Shown here: piece by piece, positions 8,799-19,479 of the stretch
Layout of the letters: every line of letters starts with the position of its first letter
Numbering within the stretch: the stretch's first letter is position 1
Assembly (NCBI GenBank): GCA_027493955.1
Contig: JAOSJT010000001.1
Coordinates: 124,001 to 188,000 of the forward strand
Direction: 5' to 3'
Source: Bacteroidia bacterium
Lineage (GTDB): Bacteria > Bacteroidota > Ignavibacteria > SZUA-365
Length of the DNA: 64,000 nucleotides
Notes under the pieces: model-generated
What the model was told of the DNA's origin: nothing
What the model saw: the letters and a program-made list of their open reading frames with translations, nothing else
Database searches by the model: none
Translations under genes and position numbers: made by a program

Positions 8799-9101
8799 TC
8801 ACCACTTTAAGAGATTGACGTCGTTGATGCTGACGGTTTGCTTATTCCTGAACAGCGCGATCACGATCGCGAGACCAACCGCGGCCTCGGCGGCGGCGAC
8901 GGCCATGACGAAGAAAACGAAAATCTGACCTGCCGCATCGCCAAGGAAGGCGCTGAATGAAACGAAGGTCAGATTCACCGAGTTGAGCATCAGCTCGATG
9001 CACATGAATATGATGATGGCGTTTCTGCGCGTCAATACCCCGACCACGCCGGTCGTGAACATGATGGCGCTGACAATGAGATAAAAATGAATCGGTACCA
9101 T
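8799..9101 (-). CDS. nuoK: NADH-quinone oxidoreductase subunit K
   Basis: A 100-residue protein with three membrane helices, the standard NuoK length. The two membrane glutamates needed for proton transfer are visible in [15 protein letters not shown] (second helix) and [17 protein letters not shown] (third helix). It ends in NDVNLLKW, a common NuoK tail. An AAGGAG site lies upstream of the ATG but about 13 bases away, which is a wide spacing. It lies between nuoJ and nuoL in the usual order. Confidence 0.96.
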
Positions 9102-9122
9102 GTAACGGTCGTTTCTCCTTCG

Positions 9123-9644
9123 TCAGGGGAATTGCTTCTTCGCGAGTACCACTGCTCCGATCATTGCCGCAAGCAACAGCACGGAAGTGATTTCCACAAC
9201 AAACACGTATTCGGTGAACAGAACCCCGCCGATGTGCTCAACGGTACCAATGACCGATGCTTGCGGGGACTGCGCAGTCATGGCGTCGAGCGTGCTTCCG
9301 CCTTTCCATAACAACACCTGCAGTATCAGCAGTAAAGTCACGGACGCCAGCGCAACGCCGATAAATTGCGAGGCTTTGAGATGCTCACGTAACGGCGCGT
9401 CACTCTGCAGATTGAGCAGCATGATGACGAACAACACCAGCACCATGATCGCGCCGGCATAGACGAGTATCTGTATCACGGCAACAAATTGCGCGTGCAG
9501 CGTCAGATACATCCCCGCGAGCGCGATGAAATTGAGTATGAGAAAGAGCGCACTGTTGACCGGATTCGCCCTTGTGATCATCAAAATCCCGGACAAAACC
9601 GCGGTTACTGCCAGGACAAGGAAAAAAATCATTTCGGAAGACAC
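9123..9644 (-). CDS. nuoJ: NADH-quinone oxidoreductase subunit J
   Basis: A membrane subunit of complex I with five expected helices. FALAGMYLTL-type segments precede the conserved AQFVAVIQILVYAGAIMVLV, whose helix contains the pi-bulge in known structures. The reading frame is open back to 9674, but I prefer the GTG at 9644 because GGAGAAAGT sits directly before it. An ATG twelve bases further in (9632) is the other option. This is the first gene of the local nuo run: nuoA to nuoI are not in the window and the upstream neighbour encodes an unrelated folate enzyme. The complex I genes are therefore split between loci in this genome. Confidence 0.93.
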   Translation of the reverse strand: MSSEMIFFLVLAVTAVLSGILMITRANPVNSALFLILNFIALAGMYLTLHAQFVAVIQILVYAGAIMVLVLFVIMLLNLQSDAPLREHLKASQFIGVALASVTLLLILQVLLWKGGSTLDAMTAQSPQASVIGTVEHIGGVLFTEYVFVVEITSVLLLAAMIGAVVLAKKQFP

Positions 9645-9871
9645 ACTTTCTCCGGGAGAATAGAGGTTCGGCACTAATCATGGCAATATAGCCCGAGGGG
9701 GCCTTTCATACAAACCGCAACGTCGTTGCGCGTGCGTCCATTACCGAAGTCCGGACAAGAAAGCGCAGTGTTGATCGCCATGAGCGGTGCCGGGGGTCGC
9801 CTTCGGACAGGCCCCGTATGCGAACGTGAAGCGCAAGCCTCACTGACGGAAGCGGCCTGCGTGTCTGCCTG

Positions 9872-10705
9872 CTACGACGGCTGTGGTTCGTAGGCAAGCC
9901 ATTGTGTGCGCAAATCCACGAGCAGCTCTTCGGGAAGCGCTTTTACCTCTACGCGGTTGATCGAATGCACCGGGAAGGGACCGAGTAGCGAATTGCTCAA
10001 CAGTATGGCGGATTTGAGCAGCCGCTCCGGCGTCACAACACCCGTTGCCACATTCGCTCCCTTGCCGCGCAAAATTTCGATGAGGATGTCCCGGGAAATG
10101 CTCGGCAAAGCATCCGGAGTCTCGGGCACGATCCAACGGCCCCGATAGAACAGCAACAGCGCTGCGATGCTGGTTTCAGCCACGTTCCCGTTGCGATCGA
10201 GCAGCACCATGTCGTCGAAGCCGTGTAGCCGCGCCGAGTGCAACGCCATTCGCGCAGCGAGGTAGCTGCTGCTTTTATGCACGGTGAGCGGGCCGCCCTG
10301 CACACGTCCGTCGAGCCCCAGTCTCCAGGGCATGGAAAGAGCCGGCCTCAGGTAGGGCTCGGCGGTAATGAACAAGGTAGGACGTCGCACCGGCTGATAC
10401 GCAGTGATGTCCCCGGGAGTAGCGAGTATTTTCACGCGCACCTGTCCGTGATCAAGACTGTTCTTCTTCAGCACCGAGGTGATGCCCGTCCGCAACTCAT
10501 CGTCGCTTTCCACGATGGGAATTCCCAGTTTCTCCGCCGATCCGCGTAAGCGCGCGAGGTGACGCCCGAGTACGCGGGGAGTTCCGTCTATGCACAGGAG
10601 CGTTTCGAAAAGTCCGGCGCCGAACTGAAAGCCCGCGTCGAAGACGGAGATGGTCGCATCGTGCAAGTGCACGAGTGAGCCGTTGAGGTAGACTATTCCT
10701 CGCAT
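9872..10705 (-). CDS. pabC: Aminodeoxychorismate lyase-like class IV aminotransferase
   Basis: A 277-residue PLP enzyme of fold type IV. It would split 4-amino-4-deoxychorismate into 4-aminobenzoate and pyruvate in folate synthesis. VFDAGFQFGAGLFETL is the family N-terminal pattern. TVHKSSSYLAAR provides the PLP lysine, and NVAETSIAALLLF holds the cofactor-phosphate glutamate region. The start overlaps the pabB end by 13 bases, and pabA lies upstream, so the three form one coupled unit. Class IV enzymes include branched-chain and D-amino acid aminotransferases that look alike in sequence; the pabA-pabB neighbourhood is the main reason for choosing PabC. Confidence 0.85.
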   Translation of the reverse strand: MRGIVYLNGSLVHLHDATISVFDAGFQFGAGLFETLLCIDGTPRVLGRHLARLRGSAEKLGIPIVESDDELRTGITSVLKKNSLDHGQVRVKILATPGDITAYQPVRRPTLFITAEPYLRPALSMPWRLGLDGRVQGGPLTVHKSSSYLAARMALHSARLHGFDDMVLLDRNGNVAETSIAALLLFYRGRWIVPETPDALPSISRDILIEILRGKGANVATGVVTPERLLKSAILLSNSLLGPFPVHSINRVEVKALPEELLVDLRTQWLAYEPQPS

Positions 10706-12093
10706 CTATCGTCCAGTGTTCGTGAAATATCGATTCCAAGAAATTTGAAAAACGTCCCTCCCTTGTGCAACGTTTCAAGATACTCCGCTTCGGGATCCGA
10801 GTCGTAGACGATGCCCCCGCCCAGTGAGAGGTGACAGACGCCGTGACGCAGTATCGCCGTGCGTATCGCAATGTTGAAATCACACCGGCCGCCCGCGGCA
10901 ATATAGCCGATGGCACCGGTGTACACATGCCGTGTCGAAGACTCGAGCTCCGCGACAATCTCCATTGCCCGGATTTTCGGACATCCGGTAATGGATCCAC
11001 CGGGAAAAAGGGCGCGGAACACCTCTCCGACCCTTGTGCCGGGCGTCAGCCGGCCCTCGACCACGGAAACGAGATGCTGCACATTCGCATAGCGCTCGAG
11101 TCGCTTGTGCGCCGTCACCTTCACACTTCCCGTGGCACAGATGCGACCCAGATCATTGCGCTCAAGATCAACGATCATGGAAAGTTCAGCATCATCCTTC
11201 GGGTTGCTAACAAGATCCTGTGCCAGGGCTTCGTCCTCTTCCGGTGTCGCGCCCCGCGGCCGCGTCCCCTTGATCGGGCGCGTTTCAATTCGTCCGTCGT
11301 CGAGGAAGAAGAATCGCTCCATGGAGGTGCAGAGAATGTCGTGCTCCGGCGCATGTATCCATGCAGCGAAGGGAGATGGGTTCGCCTCAACCAGCTTTTT
11401 CCAGAGTGTTCGCGCGTCGCCGGTCAGGCGAATATGAAAGCGCTGCGCGAGATTCACCTGATATACATCCCCGTCGTGAATGTGCTTCCGGACGGTCTCG
11501 GCCTTGTGGAGATATGCACGCTCGGTCCAGTCCGCGAAGGTCACAGACGTGTCGTGCAATGGCGTATCGGGAACGAAGGGAATCTCATCGATGCGCTTCC
11601 CCTCGTCGTCGCACCAGATGAAACGGCGGGATTCGATTGTGCCGCCGGCGTGTTCATACACAAGAGTGCGGGAGGGAAGAAGGAAAAGCAGATCCGGCAA
11701 GCTGAGTTCGTCATGCGCGTGGACGCGCATGTCGTCGAGCAGTACCGCCGCTTCGTAGGCGACATATCCGCCAAGCAGCGGGGCATCCTTCCAAGCGTGC
11801 GGAGCAGCGGGCAGCAGCGATGCCAGCTCCTGGAGCACATCGAAAGGATGCGCTTCGAAGTGCGTTACCTGCAGACCGATCTGCAAACGGCACTGCATCG
11901 CTTTTGCGGTGAACAACACGACCGGACGCAGCATTGCCATGGAGTGCACGCTCAGGTCGTGCGCTCCTCCGCTGGCCAGAACGACTTCGTATCCGCCTCC
12001 GGCCGCCGCCTGACTGCGCGCAAGAAATTCCTGTACGTCGGTGCAGGGAGTGACGGAGGATTCGGTACAGCGGAACGTGAGTGATGGTATCAT
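10693..12093 (-). CDS. pabB: Aminodeoxychorismate synthase component I
   Basis: A 466-residue chorismate-utilising enzyme that aminates chorismate with ammonia delivered by the PabA subunit. The C-terminal chorismate-binding domain is complete: SMERFFFLDDGRIETRPIKG, then GTRPRG, DLERNDLGR, GGSITGCPKIRAMEIV and YTGAIGYIAAGGRCDFNIAI. The PIKGT lysine is the one used by PabB-type enzymes. The N-terminal domain (about residues 1-180) is divergent. A four-base overlap with pabA and a 13-base overlap with pabC support an operon. Anthranilate synthase component I is the alternative, but no trp genes are nearby and pabC follows, so PabB is preferred. Confidence 0.9.
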   Translation of the reverse strand: MIPSLTFRCTESSVTPCTDVQEFLARSQAAAGGGYEVVLASGGAHDLSVHSMAMLRPVVLFTAKAMQCRLQIGLQVTHFEAHPFDVLQELASLLPAAPHAWKDAPLLGGYVAYEAAVLLDDMRVHAHDELSLPDLLFLLPSRTLVYEHAGGTIESRRFIWCDDEGKRIDEIPFVPDTPLHDTSVTFADWTERAYLHKAETVRKHIHDGDVYQVNLAQRFHIRLTGDARTLWKKLVEANPSPFAAWIHAPEHDILCTSMERFFFLDDGRIETRPIKGTRPRGATPEEDEALAQDLVSNPKDDAELSMIVDLERNDLGRICATGSVKVTAHKRLERYANVQHLVSVVEGRLTPGTRVGEVFRALFPGGSITGCPKIRAMEIVAELESSTRHVYTGAIGYIAAGGRCDFNIAIRTAILRHGVCHLSLGGGIVYDSDPEAEYLETLHKGGTFFKFLGIDISRTLDDRCEE

Positions 12094-12677
12094 CGGTGTC
12101 GTTTCCCCTTCTCCCGCTCAACGAGAGCGAGAAAATTTCCGGCCATGGTATCGCCGTGTTGTGTAAGGAAGGATTCCGGATGAAACTGCACACCGTGGAT
12201 CTCGAACGAGCGATGCCGCAGGGCCATGACGGTGCCGTCGCTGCCCCATGCCTGCTCGACGAGTTCGTCGCCTTTGCGGCGTATGGCAAGCGAGTGATAG
12301 CGGGCGGCGCGAAAGGGGCTCGGTACACCGAAAAACACACCGCTGCCATCGTGATGCACCTCGTCCGTTTTTCCGTGTACCGGGAAGGGAGCATGAACTG
12401 TCTCACCACCATAGACCTCATTGATCAATTGCATACCGAGGCATACACCCAGCACGGGAAGGACGCCGCTCCAATGCAGCAGTGCCTCGCGGCTTACGCC
12501 CGTCTCATCCGGACGGCCGGGGCCGGGGGAAATAAGCAAGGCGTCCGGACGCAACATCACCAACTCCTCCAGAGACACGCTGTTTCGACGTACCACCACG
12601 TCTGCACCGCCCGAGCTGAGGAGTTGCGCGAGGTTGTGCGTGAAAGAGTCGAAATTATCTATGAGCAGAAGTCGCAT
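12090..12677 (-). CDS. pabA: Aminodeoxychorismate/anthranilate synthase glutamine amidotransferase
   Basis: A class I glutamine amidotransferase of about 195 residues that releases ammonia for the PabB subunit. It begins MRLLLIDNFDSFTHNLAQLL, the standard PabA/TrpG N terminus. It has the nucleophile motif GVCLGMQLINEVYGG, the oxyanion segment LISPGPGRPDETG and the His-Glu pair in QFHPESFLTQHG. The frame is open upstream to a TTG at 12704, but the ATG at 12677 matches the family start. There is no clear Shine-Dalgarno site. It is the first gene of the pab unit, overlapping pabB by four bases. It could also serve anthranilate synthase, as PabA does in some bacteria. Confidence 0.9.
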   Translation of the reverse strand: MRLLLIDNFDSFTHNLAQLLSSGGADVVVRRNSVSLEELVMLRPDALLISPGPGRPDETGVSREALLHWSGVLPVLGVCLGMQLINEVYGGETVHAPFPVHGKTDEVHHDGSGVFFGVPSPFRAARYHSLAIRRKGDELVEQAWGSDGTVMALRHRSFEIHGVQFHPESFLTQHGDTMAGNFLALVEREKGKRHR

Positions 12678-12830
12678 CAGGTAAAAATAGTCAGCGGCGC
12701 GCAATACCCATAACGAGCAGGCTGGGGTCGCGTCTCATGCGCCGTCGGCATCGCGGCAGGGTACAGCAGAGTGATGTGGCCCTTGAAGAAATGCCCGTGA
12801 GCGGTGACGCACACCCGGTTTGAGCCAAGG

Positions 12831-12891: not shown

Positions 12892-14708
<1,817 letters not shown>

Positions 14709-17700
14709 ATGAAACGCCAGCGAATAAAAAGCGACGAACTCCGCGATCTTATCGTTGATTCCGGTTTTGCCAATAAGGATGTCAGTCCGCAGGACCTGGA
14801 CTTCAAGGATCTGATGCGCTTCCGTGTCAACAATATCCTGCTCGTGTCGAGTCGCTACGACTTCTATACGCTCGTGGATGACGGACAGCTGACAGAGGCC
14901 ATCTTCAGCGAGTATCTGGAACTGAACCTGCATTACGCACCATCCATTACCCGCGTCTACTCCGGTGAGGCCGCGCTCGATGCGCTCGACAACAGCCGCT
15001 TCGATCTGGTCATCACGATGATGCGCCTCGGCGATATGCGACTCAAGGATTTTGTCGCCGCACTCAAGGCACAGCACCCCGATCTGCCCGTAGCCCTGCT
15101 GGGCTATCAGAGCAGGGAACTGCAAATCCTGATCAGCCAGGGCGCGGTGGACAAATTCGACCGCGTGTTCATATGGTCCGGCGACAGAAAGCTCTTCCTC
15201 GCCATTATCAAGTTGCTGGAGGACCTGGTCAACGCGCGCACCGATTGCATGGAGTTCGGCGTTCGCGCGATTCTGCTCGTCGAAGATTCGCCGCAATTCT
15301 ATTCGTCGTATCTGCCACTGATTTATACCGAGCTCATCAAGCAGGGGCAGATGCTTATCGAGGAGGGGAAGAATTTCGCGGAAAAGCTGCTACGTCAGCG
15401 CGCCCGGCCGAAGATTCTTCACGCGATCAATTTCGAGGAGGCATGGCGCTATTTCCACAAGTACCGGCACGAGCTGCTCGGCATCATCACCGATATCAAA
15501 TTTCCGATCAACGGTGTGGAGGATGAAAAAGCGGGCCTCAAGTTTATTCAGCGCGTCCGCGTGAAAAGTCCGGAACTTCCGGTTCTCGTGCAGTCATCCA
15601 GGGAGGATTTGCGGGAAGAAATCGCCATTCTGAATGCCGCCTTCTCGAATAAAAACTCCCGTATTCTGCTGCAGGAAGTGCGGGAGTTCATGCTGAACAA
15701 CTTCGGCTTCGGCGATTTCATTTTCCGCATGCCCGATGGGACTGAGCTGGACCGCGCCCGGACGCTGCGGCAACTGCGGCAGAAGATGCGCATCATGCCG
15801 GAAGAGTCCATCCGGTATCACGCTTCACGAGACCATTTCAGCAATTGGCTTATGGCCAGGACGCGATTCCGGCTCGCACAGGAGATCAAACCGGTCAAAA
15901 TCACGGAGTTCAAAACCACAGAGGAACTGCGACAGTACATCCTCACCAAGATCGACGAACTGGTGTTGCACGATGAGAGGGGACTGATAGCGGATTTCTC
16001 GCACGAGGAAGTCGATTCCCGATCTACCTTCCTGCGCATCGGCCGTGGCTCACTCGGTGGCAAGGCGCGTGGTCTGGCTTTCATCGATACGATTCTGAAG
16101 AATTATCTGCATCCATCGTATTTCCCGACCATGCGCATCAAAATTCCGCGATCCGTGATTCTCTGCACGGAGGTGTTCGCGCAATTCATGGAAGCGAACC
16201 AGCTGCTGCCGCAGGTGGTGCAGAACATATCCGATGAGGAGATTGTGGACTTGTTCATGCAGGCGCGTTTCCCGCAGAGCGTCGAGGAGGATTTGCGTGC
16301 CATCGTGCTGCGCAACACCCAACCCCTCGCGGTGCGTTCTTCCAGTCTGTTGGAAGATACACTCTATCAGCCCTTTGCGGGTATATACGCCACAGTGATG
16401 CTTCCCAACAGCAATGACGATCCGTACATCCGCTTCAAGGAACTCGAGCAGGCAATCAAATACGTCTATGCGTCCACCTACCTTCGCGGAGCCAAGAATT
16501 ACATCGAGGCGACGGGGCATCGTCTCGAAGAAGAGCAGATGGCCGTCATCATTCAGGAAATGGTCGGCAGAAAATACGACAACTACTATTACCCGCATTA
16601 TTCCGGCGTGGCGCGTTCGTACAATTACTATCCCTTCGGAGACGCACGGCAGGCGGACGGCATCGTGAATCTCGCCGTGGGACTGGGCAAGACCATTGTC
16701 GAGGGGGGCGTCAGTACGCAGTTCTGTCCCGTGTTCCCGACAATTCAACCGCAGTTCGCGACGCGAAAGGATTACTATGCCAATTCGCAGAAAAAATTCT
16801 ATGCAGTGGATTTGAACGCCGAGCCGTTGAAGCAGAAGCCCAGTGAAGACGAAAATCTCGCACTGCTCGACCTCAAGATCGCCGAGCAGCATGGGACGCT
16901 CGACTACGCGGCGTCCACCTACTGTACCGAGGACGACACGCTGTATGAGGGCACCTTCAGAAAAGGCCTGCGCGTCACGAATTTTGCCCCGATTCTGCAA
17001 TCCGAATTTATTCCTCTCGCAAAAATTCTGCGTCTCCTGATGCACTTGTGCGAGACGGCGATGAACTGCCCTGTCGAGATTGAGTTCGCAGGCACGTTGG
17101 GTGAGAGTTTCGACGACATTGCGGAATTCGATTTCCTCCAGGTACGCCCCATGGTGAAGGAAGAGGGCAGTGTGGATCTCGACGAGGCGCATATCGCCGC
17201 CTCGGACGTTCTGCTGTGGAGCGATAAGGTGCTGGGGAACGGCGTGTATCGTCTGCGGGATATCGTGTATGTGAAGCCGGACTCCTTCGAGAGCGCAAGA
17301 ACGCAGGAGATGGCGAATGAGATCGCCGAAATCAACAAAGGATTGGTTGCGGAGCATACACCCTATCTGCTCATAGGGCCTGGTCGCTGGGGTTCAGCCG
17401 ATCCCTGGCTCGGGATTCCCGTTCGATTCACCAGCATCGCCGGCGCTCACGCGGTGGTGGAAACTTCTCTGCCCAACATGCTGCCCGACCCTTCGCAGGG
17501 CTCGCATTTCTTCCAGAATCTCACGTCCTTCCACATCGCGTACTTCACGACAAGGCACTATAACGAGAAACACACTATCGACTGGGACTGGCTGAACGCG
17601 CAAGAAGGGGTGACGGAAACGCAGTGGATACGTCATGTCCGTCTGCCCGAAGATCTGGAAATTCGCGTGGACGGACAGACCGGACACGGCGTCATTCTGA

Positions 17701-17726
17701 AGCGGCTGCAGGTCGTGGAGGACTGA
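14709..17726 (+). CDS. Double-receiver protein with PEP synthase-type ATP-binding domain
   Basis: A 1005-residue cytoplasmic protein. Residues about 37-165 resemble a receiver domain, but the strand that should carry the phosphorylated Asp reads LVITMM with Thr at position 103. Residues about 185-335 form a second receiver with VEDS (192-195) and a candidate acceptor Asp262 in IITDIKFP. Residues about 440-820 are a PEP synthase/PPDK ATP-binding domain: GRGSLGGKARGLAF near 445, AVRSSSLLEDTLYQPFAGIY near 541, and LQVRPMV near 811. I find neither the phosphohistidine swivel domain (a TSH-type motif) nor the PEP-binding barrel. The C terminus contains LLIGPGRWGSADPWLG. It is unlikely to make PEP. 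A phosphotransfer or regulatory role tied to the neighbouring glutamate dehydrogenases is inference. Confidence 0.85.
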   Translation: MKRQRIKSDELRDLIVDSGFANKDVSPQDLDFKDLMRFRVNNILLVSSRYDFYTLVDDGQLTEAIFSEYLELNLHYAPSITRVYSGEAALDALDNSRFDLVITMMRLGDMRLKDFVAALKAQHPDLPVALLGYQSRELQILISQGAVDKFDRVFIWSGDRKLFLAIIKLLEDLVNARTDCMEFGVRAILLVEDSPQFYSSYLPLIYTELIKQGQMLIEEGKNFAEKLLRQRARPKILHAINFEEAWRYFHKYRHELLGIITDIKFPINGVEDEKAGLKFIQRVRVKSPELPVLVQSSREDLREEIAILNAAFSNKNSRILLQEVREFMLNNFGFGDFIFRMPDGTELDRARTLRQLRQKMRIMPEESIRYHASRDHFSNWLMARTRFRLAQEIKPVKITEFKTTEELRQYILTKIDELVLHDERGLIADFSHEEVDSRSTFLRIGRGSLGGKARGLAFIDTILKNYLHPSYFPTMRIKIPRSVILCTEVFAQFMEANQLLPQVVQNISDEEIVDLFMQARFPQSVEEDLRAIVLRNTQPLAVRSSSLLEDTLYQPFAGIYATVMLPNSNDDPYIRFKELEQAIKYVYASTYLRGAKNYIEATGHRLEEEQMAVIIQEMVGRKYDNYYYPHYSGVARSYNYYPFGDARQADGIVNLAVGLGKTIVEGGVSTQFCPVFPTIQPQFATRKDYYANSQKKFYAVDLNAEPLKQKPSEDENLALLDLKIAEQHGTLDYAASTYCTEDDTLYEGTFRKGLRVTNFAPILQSEFIPLAKILRLLMHLCETAMNCPVEIEFAGTLGESFDDIAEFDFLQVRPMVKEEGSVDLDEAHIAASDVLLWSDKVLGNGVYRLRDIVYVKPDSFESARTQEMANEIAEINKGLVAEHTPYLLIGPGRWGSADPWLGIPVRFTSIAGAHAVVETSLPNMLPDPSQGSHFFQNLTSFHIAYFTTRHYNEKHTIDWDWLNAQEGVTETQWIRHVRLPEDLEIRVDGQTGHGVILKRLQVVED

Positions 17727-17884: not shown

Positions 17885-19225
17885 TTATACGATGCCTTGT
17901 GCCATCATCGCGTCGGCGACTTTGACGAAGCCAGCGATATTGGCGCCGGCGACGTAGTTACCGGGAGCGCCGTAATTGCTTGCGGCGTCGAGGCAGGATT
18001 GGTGGATATTCGTCATGATGCGGTGCAGATGCGTATCCACTTCCTCGCGCGACCAGCTCATTCGAATGGAGTTCTGCGTCATTTCGAGGCCTGATGTCGC
18101 AACACCGCCGGCGTTCGCGGCCTTGGCGGGTCCGTAGAGAATCTTGTGGTCGATGAATAATTTCATCGCTTCGGGAGTGGAGGGCATATTCGCGCCTTCG
18201 CACACGCAGATGCAGCCGTTGTCCAGCAACGTCTGGGCGTCCTTGCCGTCGAGCTCGTTCTGTGTGGCACAGGGCAGCGCGACGTCGCACTTCACTTCCC
18301 ACGGGCGTTTGCCGGCCACGAATTCGCAACCGAAGCGCTCGGCGTAGGGTTCGACGATGTCCTGATTGCTTGCGCGCAGCTCGAGCATGTACTCGATCTT
18401 TTCGCCCGAGATCCCTGCCGGATCGAACACGTAGCCGTCGGGACCGGAGAGGGTCACAACCTTACCGCCGAGTTCGGTGACTTTGATCGCCGCGCCCCAT
18501 GCCACGTTGCCGAAGCCGGAAAGAGCGACCGTCTTGCCCTCGAAGCTCTGTCCCTTGGTCTTGAGCATTTCCTGCGCGAAATAGGTGACGCCGAAGCCCG
18601 TGGCTTCCGGACGGATCAGCGATCCGCCCCAGGTAAGGCCCTTGCCTGTGAGCACGCCGTCGAATGAGTTGCGAAGCTTTTTGTATTGACCGAACATGAA
18701 GCCGATCTCCTGGCCGCCGACGCCGATGTCGCCCGCGGGCACGTCGGTATTGGGACCGATATGGCGGAACAACTCGCTCATATAGCTCTGACAGAAGCGC
18801 ATGATTTCATTCTTCGACTTGAATTTCGGATCGAAGTCGGAGCCGCCCTTACCGCCGCCCATCGGAAGCGTCGTGAGACTGTTTTTGAAAATCTGCTCGA
18901 AGCCCAGGAATTTGAGAATGCTCAGCGTCACGCTGGGGTGGAAGCGGAGACCACCCTTGTACGGACCGATGGCGCTGTTGAACTCGACGCGATATCCGCG
19001 GTTGACCCGTACTTCGCCGTTATCCGCCACCCAGGGGACGCGGAACATGATGGTCCTCTCGGGTTCGACGATGCGTTCGAGAATTTTCGCCTTGCGGTAC
19101 TCCGGGTGCTTGTCCAGCACCGGCATGAGAGTTTCGACAACTTCTTCCACTGCCTGGTGGAACTCGGCCTCTCCAGGATTCTTGGCCTTGACTTCCTGCA
19201 TGAAGTCGTTCAGTGCGCTTGACAT
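17885..19225 (-). CDS. gdhA: Glutamate dehydrogenase, NAD-type cofactor loop
   Basis: A 446-residue paralogue of the dehydrogenase at 12892, with the same catalytic motifs ([32 protein letters not shown]). It differs in the nucleotide fold: LSGFGNVAWGAA, and a loop reading VTLSGPDGYVFDP. As I recall, the same SGPDGY loop occurs in the NAD-dependent enzyme of Clostridium symbiosum, so this copy may be catabolic. The frame is open upstream to 19255, but the ATG at 19225 has GAAGGAAG five bases before it and matches the paralogue start (MSSALNDFMQEVKAKNP). It converges on the receiver/PEP-synthase-like gene. The enzyme call is secure; cofactor preference needs assay. Confidence 0.95.
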   Translation of the reverse strand: MSSALNDFMQEVKAKNPGEAEFHQAVEEVVETLMPVLDKHPEYRKAKILERIVEPERTIMFRVPWVADNGEVRVNRGYRVEFNSAIGPYKGGLRFHPSVTLSILKFLGFEQIFKNSLTTLPMGGGKGGSDFDPKFKSKNEIMRFCQSYMSELFRHIGPNTDVPAGDIGVGGQEIGFMFGQYKKLRNSFDGVLTGKGLTWGGSLIRPEATGFGVTYFAQEMLKTKGQSFEGKTVALSGFGNVAWGAAIKVTELGGKVVTLSGPDGYVFDPAGISGEKIEYMLELRASNQDIVEPYAERFGCEFVAGKRPWEVKCDVALPCATQNELDGKDAQTLLDNGCICVCEGANMPSTPEAMKLFIDHKILYGPAKAANAGGVATSGLEMTQNSIRMSWSREEVDTHLHRIMTNIHQSCLDAASNYGAPGNYVAGANIAGFVKVADAMMAQGIV

Positions 19226-19479
19226 CGAAGCTTCCTTCAAAAGAATGATGAACAAAAAAAAGAACGAACCAGCATGGTTAAGATACGGCTTTCTGATCTC
19301 GAAAAAAAGATTTCAAGGGCATTTTGAGAAAAAAATCACGAGCGACGCCGTGATATTTCTCACGTATCGGTAAATCTTGGCATAAATGGGAAAACCCGAA
19401 GGCCGGGTGTCGAAAAAGGTCGCTAGAAATCACTAATTGCCGCGAAATCGTTTGAAAAATGATGGAATACCCATCATCC

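Follow-up and report, generated by a model that had tools for sequence, protein, structure and literature searches.

What does an ATP-binding domain of the phosphoenolpyruvate (PEP) synthase type do when it is joined to two receiver domains and encoded between two genes for glutamate dehydrogenase (GDH)? The question is raised by a gene for a 1005-amino-acid protein within a 64,000-nucleotide stretch of DNA from a Bacteroidia bacterium (contig JAOSJT010000001.1, positions 124,001 to 188,000; this whole stretch is called the window here). GDH stands at the meeting point of carbon and nitrogen metabolism, and in gut Bacteroidota it is a main route of ammonia assimilation. An earlier note on this DNA, made from the sequence alone, regarded the protein as a signalling or phosphotransfer device with a link to carbon/nitrogen balance. 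Both ideas are well supported by the present analysis, and overall the observation in the note was partly confirmed and its interpretation partly supported. The protein is a member of a large, GDH-paired and apparently unstudied family and not an odd, isolated fusion. Our proposal, to which we give an even chance of being right, is that it is a dedicated, signal-gated regulator of GDH that works as an ATP-dependent phosphotransferase.

The open reading frame, with an ATG start, was confirmed, and the domain make-up described earlier, a double receiver followed by a PEP-synthase ATP-binding domain, was borne out by Pfam, the AF2 model and invariant residues. Pfam recognizes two Response_reg stretches, a borderline DUF5752 match at residues 348-419 (23.0 bits, cut-off 23) and PPDK_N (PF01326) at residues 448-818 (E 6.5e-41, 141 bits against a cut-off of 27), and the AF2 model of the whole protein has a mean pLDDT of 84.3. 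With E values allowed up to 10, Pfam finds no PEP-utilizers domain (PF00391) and no barrel family anywhere in the protein, in agreement with the earlier statement that a PEP-binding barrel is absent; the PEP/pyruvate-binding barrel (PF02896) is missing, and the protein stops at residue 1005, about 190 residues past the ATP-grasp domain. NCBIfam models for PEP synthases, PigC, rifampin phosphotransferase (RPH) and response regulators are the only ones with a match, and all score far short of their cut-offs.

Conservation was read from an alignment (A2) built from tblastn segments that span over 920 residues of the query; there are 98 such segments, and 94 of them together with the window protein make up its 95 sequences. 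Four focal copies (L040, L083, L089 and L108) were left out because the matched stretch contains an in-frame stop, which may reflect assembly error or decay, and L037 and an interrupted second copy at L048 were too short; alignment A3 is A2 minus L067, with 94 rows. The ATP-grasp residues K452, R454, R543, E549, D550, E790, E792 and Q811 are invariant in 95 of 95 sequences, and R813 is not (arginine in 83, lysine in 12). K452 lies in LGGK, R543 in VRSS, E790 and E792 in EIEFA and Q811 in LQxRP, motifs that we take to be those of the catalytic and nucleotide-site residues of PPDK. When the family core is aligned with the PPDK of the source genome in a multiple alignment, the LGGK, IEF and LQxR motifs line up and His933 falls about two columns from the PPDK histidine, this alignment being partial, with the Arg543 region misaligned by an insertion in PPDK; a profile of the core against that PPDK as a single sequence produced no alignment. 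The ATP-grasp model finds its structural matches in RPH (5hv1, Z 26.6), PEP synthase (26.4) and PPDK (about 18), and the whole model aligns with PEP synthase (2ols) over residues 443-1000 at Z 26.4 and with PPDK (1dik) over 433-1003 at Z 18.1.

The core of the family is the ATP-grasp plus the C-terminal domain, with exchangeable front ends, since three architectures share it. Long members carry the receivers and the core; short members, of about 585 amino acids, begin at the ATP-grasp and consist only of the two core domains; a third type has a different N-terminus, GAF-like by eye and without a Pfam match, and a C-terminal nucleotidyltransferase domain (NTP_transf_2, found in four of the five members scanned with Pfam). 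GRWGS and G[ST]HFF are kept in all nine members aligned across the architectures. Exchangeable front ends are what would be expected of a regulated enzyme.

It is clear that the family has a dedicated genomic pairing with GDH, one that holds across many phyla, for two GDH families and in all three architectures. In an even sample of 296 genomes from the phylum, with at most two candidates scored per genome, 49 hold a core member, and the other 25 of the 74 matching genomes match by receiver alone. The pairing count rests on the 73 rows that cover the ATP-grasp core (27 receiver-only rows being excluded), with GDH rows taken from member-bearing genomes and the third type assigned by low identity. 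At least 60 of these 73 members have a GDH gene within 3 kb (long, at least 44 of 51; short, at least 9 of 11; nucleotidyltransferase type, at least 7 of 11), against a chance of adjacency roughly reckoned at less than 1% per gene. The GDH gene usually lies directly upstream on the same strand, as in 54 of the 60 paired members. The partner of long members is mostly a family I GdhA, 60-75% identical to that of the window, and the partner of short and third-type members is a GDH of 33-36% identity, of the archaeal type where scanned.

A separate scan of deposited genomes, made with two peptide patterns of which one includes the histidine motif, covered the best 80 of 573 confirmed relatives and points the same way. 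GDH is by far the commonest neighbour, present within 1.5 kb at 49 of the 80 loci and at 39 of the 54 that have at least 1.5 kb on both sides, and the next neighbour family reaches 10 of 80. Titles of the paired records include Bacteroidetes, Ignavibacteria, Gemmatimonadota, Calditrichaceae, KSB1, Acidobacteria, Planctomycetota, Deltaproteobacteria, Bdellovibrionales, Delongbacteria and Aegiribacteria, labels that stand as deposited and belong mostly to metagenome-assembled genomes. Random neighbours in relatives, the outcome that the earlier note had named as one that would count against it, are clearly not what is seen. The homologue of Parabacteroides distasonis (40% identity over 98%) adjoins gdhA, and in this species and in Phocaeicola massiliensis one gdhA is divergent to the gene and a second lies 3', a layout like that of the window except for the genes in between; in the window the earlier note was right to place the gene between two glutamate dehydrogenases. 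In public records family members are annotated just as 'PEP/pyruvate-binding domain-containing protein', and no description of the family's function was found in the open-licence literature.

If the protein is an enzyme, where does the phosphate go after the ATP-grasp domain? The earlier note found no swivelling histidine domain, and this was right in that the canonical GGxTSHxA motif is absent and wrong as to the domain itself: structure prediction, which the note had proposed as a check and a positive outcome of which it had named as a refutation, reveals a probable cryptic domain of the phosphohistidine (swivelling) fold at about residues 833-1000, much diverged in sequence. Its motifs GxGRWGS, LGxxV and SxG[STA]HFF are strongly conserved, and G892, R893, G902, E918, S929, G931, H933, F934, F935 and N937 are invariant in the 95 aligned sequences. 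The histidine is not an artefact of the scan pattern, as 18 of the 95 lack the exact pattern and all 18 have histidine at column 933, and it is also present in all 14 sequences of alignment A1, none of which was found by pattern scan. Folded alone, residues 818-1005 give a pLDDT of 88.8 and a pTM of 0.89. In a second-look alignment that re-ranks Foldseek's own 1000 chains, and which alone put phosphohistidine domains first, the five best rows are the histidine domains of PPDK and RPH at Z 6.9-7.4, headed by PPDK 377-512 (5jvn, Z 7.4, rmsd 3.6, 124 residues aligned), with other PPDKs and RPH 756-867 (5fbu, Z 6.9) next; these are followed by the C-terminal domain of Staphylococcus aureus pyruvate kinase, at Z 6.8 (3t05), and further down by the N-terminal portion of phosphotransferase system (PTS) enzyme I (2eza, Z 5.5). 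We take the top rows to represent one superfamily, including proteins whose histidine domain is phosphorylated. In the predicted model the domain runs strand-strand-helix-strand-(helix)-strand-loop-helix with the last helix starting at His933, presumably the same succession of elements that leads to the catalytic histidine of PPDK. As sequence methods see nothing, the domain would be either an extreme divergence or a convergence onto the fold, and its location immediately after the ATP-grasp, which PPDK shares, speaks for divergence. A separate protein carrying the histidine domain, suggested earlier as a partner to look for, is not supported, given this candidate domain within the same protein; as for an orphan partner elsewhere in the source genome, it was rejected, as all three PEP-utilizers domains there sit in larger proteins.

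The receivers supply the signal-gated part of the proposal, and the earlier assignment of Thr103 and Asp262 to their acceptor positions proved correct. In REC1, which has a complete beta-alpha fold in the AF2 model, column 103 holds threonine in 55 of the 95 sequences, serine in 16, isoleucine in 7, alanine in 6, valine in 5, leucine and glutamate in 2 each and cysteine and phenylalanine in 1 each, and aspartate in none; the acidic pair is also missing (positions 47, 48 and 103, those tested, all fail), so REC1 is a pseudo-receiver throughout the alignment. REC2 carries the full receiver set (E192, D193, D262, S296 and K315), with E192, D262 and K315 invariant in all 95 and D193 in 87 (asparagine in 8), and the AF2 model gives it, like REC1, the secondary structure of a receiver, with Spo0F, DivK and others as structural matches at Z about 14. 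No conserved histidine kinase that might be its cognate appears among the commonest neighbour clusters of the best 80 loci. The features of the gene and its immediate neighbours are collected in Table 1.

Table 1. Positions in the window of the gene, its encoded domains and the flanking gdhA genes.
Feature	Positions	Strand	Basis
Whole gene, 1005 aa: pseudo-receiver, receiver, helical linker, PPDK_N ATP-grasp, putative divergent swivelling/His domain	14709-17726	+	
REC1, pseudo-receiver, about residues 40-160, Thr103 at acceptor position	14826-15188	+	Pfam 55-139, AF2 model, alignment
REC2, canonical receiver, residues 184-337, acceptor Asp262 at 15492-15494	15258-15719	+	structure matches, alignment
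Linker with weak DUF5752 match, residues 348-419, mostly helical in model	15750-15965	+	Pfam, AF2 model
ATP-grasp, PPDK/PEP-synthase type (PPDK_N), residues 448-818; K452, R543, E790, E792, Q811 intact	16050-17162	+	
Putative divergent swivelling (phosphohistidine-like) domain, about residues 833-1000; GxGRWGS and SxG[STA]HFF motifs	17205-17708	+	structure, conservation
His933 codon, candidate phosphorylated histidine	17505-17507	+	conserved in 95/95, helix start
gdhA copy 1, divergent to gene	12892-14235	-	Pfam/NCBIfam: NADP-type glutamate dehydrogenase
gdhA copy 2, convergent with gene	17885-19255	-	

An ATP-grasp domain that feeds a swivelling domain of the histidine type, with no substrate domain and with GDH as its partner, is read most simply as a phosphotransferase acting on GDH. 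The ATP-grasp domain, to judge from its intact homologous residues, would bind ATP and pass a phosphate to His933; the C-terminal domain, to judge from its fold, would then carry the phosphohistidine away by swivelling, in the manner of PPDK, PEP synthase and RPH. The acceptor, which is the least certain step, would be a partner protein, because the protein has neither a PEP barrel nor a drug-binding domain, and most likely the neighbouring GDH, whose activity would thereby be switched. Asp262 of REC2 together with the pseudo-receiver REC1 would turn the reaction up or down, and other members would do without receivers or use a nucleotidyltransferase instead.

The known systems with which such a protein can be compared share its parts and not the whole. 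PPDK and PEP synthase have a homologous ATP-grasp with, right after it, a domain of what appears to be the same fold type with its histidine at the same helix start, whereas the window protein lacks their barrel and GGxTSHxA motif and has a receiver front end and the GDH pairing. RPH of Listeria, whose structure 5hv1 matches the ATP domain best and whose histidine domain (5fbu) matches the C-terminal domain, is also without a PEP barrel and holds a large drug-binding domain between its ATP and histidine domains; in the window protein, by contrast, the ATP-grasp ends near residue 820 and the next domain begins near 833 with no substrate domain seen, and the RPH model NF041857 reaches 22 bits against a cut-off of 999. 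GlnE and GlnD, nucleotidyltransferases that regulate ammonia assimilation and are cited here by analogy only, exert covalent control at the same metabolic node, and distant family members carry a C-terminal NTP_transf_2 domain; the window protein lacks this domain and differs from them in fold and chemistry.

There is also a history of GDH control in Bacteroides. Reversible inactivation of GDH in B. fragilis was reportedly described in 1987. A 3-kb segment downstream of gdhA, described in 1996, reportedly restored enzyme activity in Escherichia coli with transcription unchanged; like the family gene it lies near gdhA, its reported size is that of the window gene, and it may or may not be the family gene. 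The title of the paper concerned (Baggio and Morrison, 1996, J Bacteriol 178:7212, as cited in PMC4539542) speaks of a trans-acting gene near Bacteroides thetaiotaomicron gdhA that affects GDH activity. At one locus (L157) the family gene lies about 0.3 kb downstream of gdhA and convergent with it. BT_1970 and BT_1973 are presumably GDHs and share a numbered neighbourhood with BT_1971. The latter is a catalase according to passages of two papers (PMC12596196; PMC4595636).

How far, then, can the proposal be carried? In its fullest form, the protein would be a histidine-relay protein kinase built from PEP-synthase parts that phosphorylates GDH, and the family a new class of covalent regulator of central nitrogen metabolism in many phyla, with three sensor formats (double receiver, none, or nucleotidyltransferase fusion), a role on GDH like that of GlnE and GlnD on glutamine synthetase and PII, and an explanation of the trans-acting requirement in Bacteroides; we put this forward tentatively, as a possibility somewhat doubtful in its entirety. 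If true, it would supply a missing layer of control on GDH common to many phyla, dikinase machinery would have been re-used for signalling, and the old Bacteroides observation would become a testable one-gene hypothesis. Several observations weigh against phosphotransfer to GDH. Of the 54 well-flanked loci, 15 lack a GDH within 1.5 kb and 14 still lack one when the distance is widened to 3.5 kb, and in the source genome the third family member stands alone. GDH occurs in 270 of the 296 genomes and a family member in only 49, so that GDH does not need the protein everywhere. At Z 7.4 the best match of the C-terminal domain is modest and falls in the range for which the aligner gives a warning; Foldseek by itself returns nothing for this domain below E 0.001, its best match being an LD-carboxypeptidase at E 0.014; Pfam to E 10 and profile searches detect no sequence signal to PEP-utilizers; and the placement of His933 at the start of the helix that bears the PPDK catalytic histidine is a prediction from the order of structural elements. 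Further searches of the domain were likewise negative: hhalign against 30 canonical PEP-utilizers domains gave no signal, a profile search over the sequences of solved structures gave only chance matches, and no Pfam or NCBIfam model matched the C-terminal domain of the family. In the two named Bacteroidales records in which both genes were located, one gdhA is divergent to the family gene and the 3' end of the other lies about 3.5-4 kb away from it, a separation because of which the 1996 segment need not be the family gene.

The acceptor is the point at which the alternatives divide. The route through His933 might lead to a small molecule of the 2-oxoglutarate/glutamate/ammonia node and leave GDH unmodified, which we think unlikely, if a contender: the relatives of known function (PPDK, PEP synthase, rifampin phosphotransferase and prodigiosin ligase) all use small molecules, and loci lacking GDH sometimes carry genes resembling 2-oxoacid:ferredoxin oxidoreductase or glutamate synthase, but besides the receivers no acceptor-binding domain is left, the 585-residue members having none but the two core domains, and so tight a pairing, with two families of GDH, is more in keeping with a protein partner. 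Even with a metabolite as acceptor, the family would possess a C-terminal domain that matched no Pfam or NCBIfam model in this analysis. Absence of catalysis altogether is rather improbable. The protein would then be an allosteric partner that binds GDH, sensing energy as ATP or another nucleotide through its ATP-grasp and C-terminal domains and adding a signal through its receivers, a role in keeping with the large allosteric enzyme that GDH is and with a C-terminal domain that has neither the canonical GGxTSH motif nor a sequence signal; the invariance of the ATP-site residues and of His933 in 95 of 95 sequences goes beyond the needs of nucleotide sensing. That the protein is an ordinary degraded PEP synthase beside gdhA by an accident of lineage, as its public annotation might lead one to assume, is very improbable, being contradicted by a neighbourhood conserved over many phyla in several strand arrangements, by the retention of the nucleotide-site residues and by the complete PPDK elsewhere in the source genome. 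Phosphotransfer to GDH under receiver control is the reading that we prefer among these.

Besides the window gene, the source genome has two more members of the family, a paralog of 60% identity and a distant relative of 30% identity. It has exactly three ELFV/GDH genes, and each adjoins a family member: two GdhA genes, 75% identical to each other, flank the 1005-residue gene, and one archaeal-type GDH lies beside the 60% paralog. Twelve genomes belong to the window's family, and in 7 of them a cluster of three GDHs and three members occupies about 15 kb on one contig (G297, G298, G300, G301, G303, G304 and G305); two further genomes keep five of these six genes side by side, contig ends interrupt the cluster in another two, and in the source genome it is split in three places, where all three GDH genes still adjoin a member because the paralog stayed with the archaeal-type GDH after the split. 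The PEP-utilizers domains elsewhere in this genome sit in three proteins: the complete PPDK of 944 aa, one of 627 aa, which is the size of PTS enzyme I, and one of 1397 aa with PPDK_N. The last, at about 3.18 Mb of C1, combines PPDK_N with PEP-utilizers and is neither PPDK nor PTS enzyme I.

Relatives fused to NTP_transf_2 were seen at L003 (520-3699; source genome C1, about 1.89 Mb), L035, L043 and L083, often next to an archaeal-like GDH. Long members occur as tandem pairs at L077, L084, L091, L098, L100, L102, L104, L106, L108, L109, L111 and L113, where the second copy mostly has the variant motif SxGSHFFHN. The commonest neighbour after GDH and its own partner resemble subunits of 2-oxoacid:ferredoxin oxidoreductase (one by eye, the other by Pfam POR domains); such genes lie near the family gene at L084, L103, L104, L108, L111, L114 and others, several of them without an adjacent GDH, and genes like ferredoxin-NADP reductase or GltD at L073 and L076. 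Two loci are filed as plasmids, L034 (NZ_OY725790.1), with ruvC, valine-tRNA ligase and gdhA, and L125 (OY726056.1), with gdhA; given the chromosomal-looking genes aboard, these may be mislabelled chromosome fragments. Beside gdhA copy 1, on the minus strand at 8799-12704 of the window, are genes that by eye resemble NuoK and NuoJ NADH dehydrogenase subunits and a PabC-PabB-PabA set.

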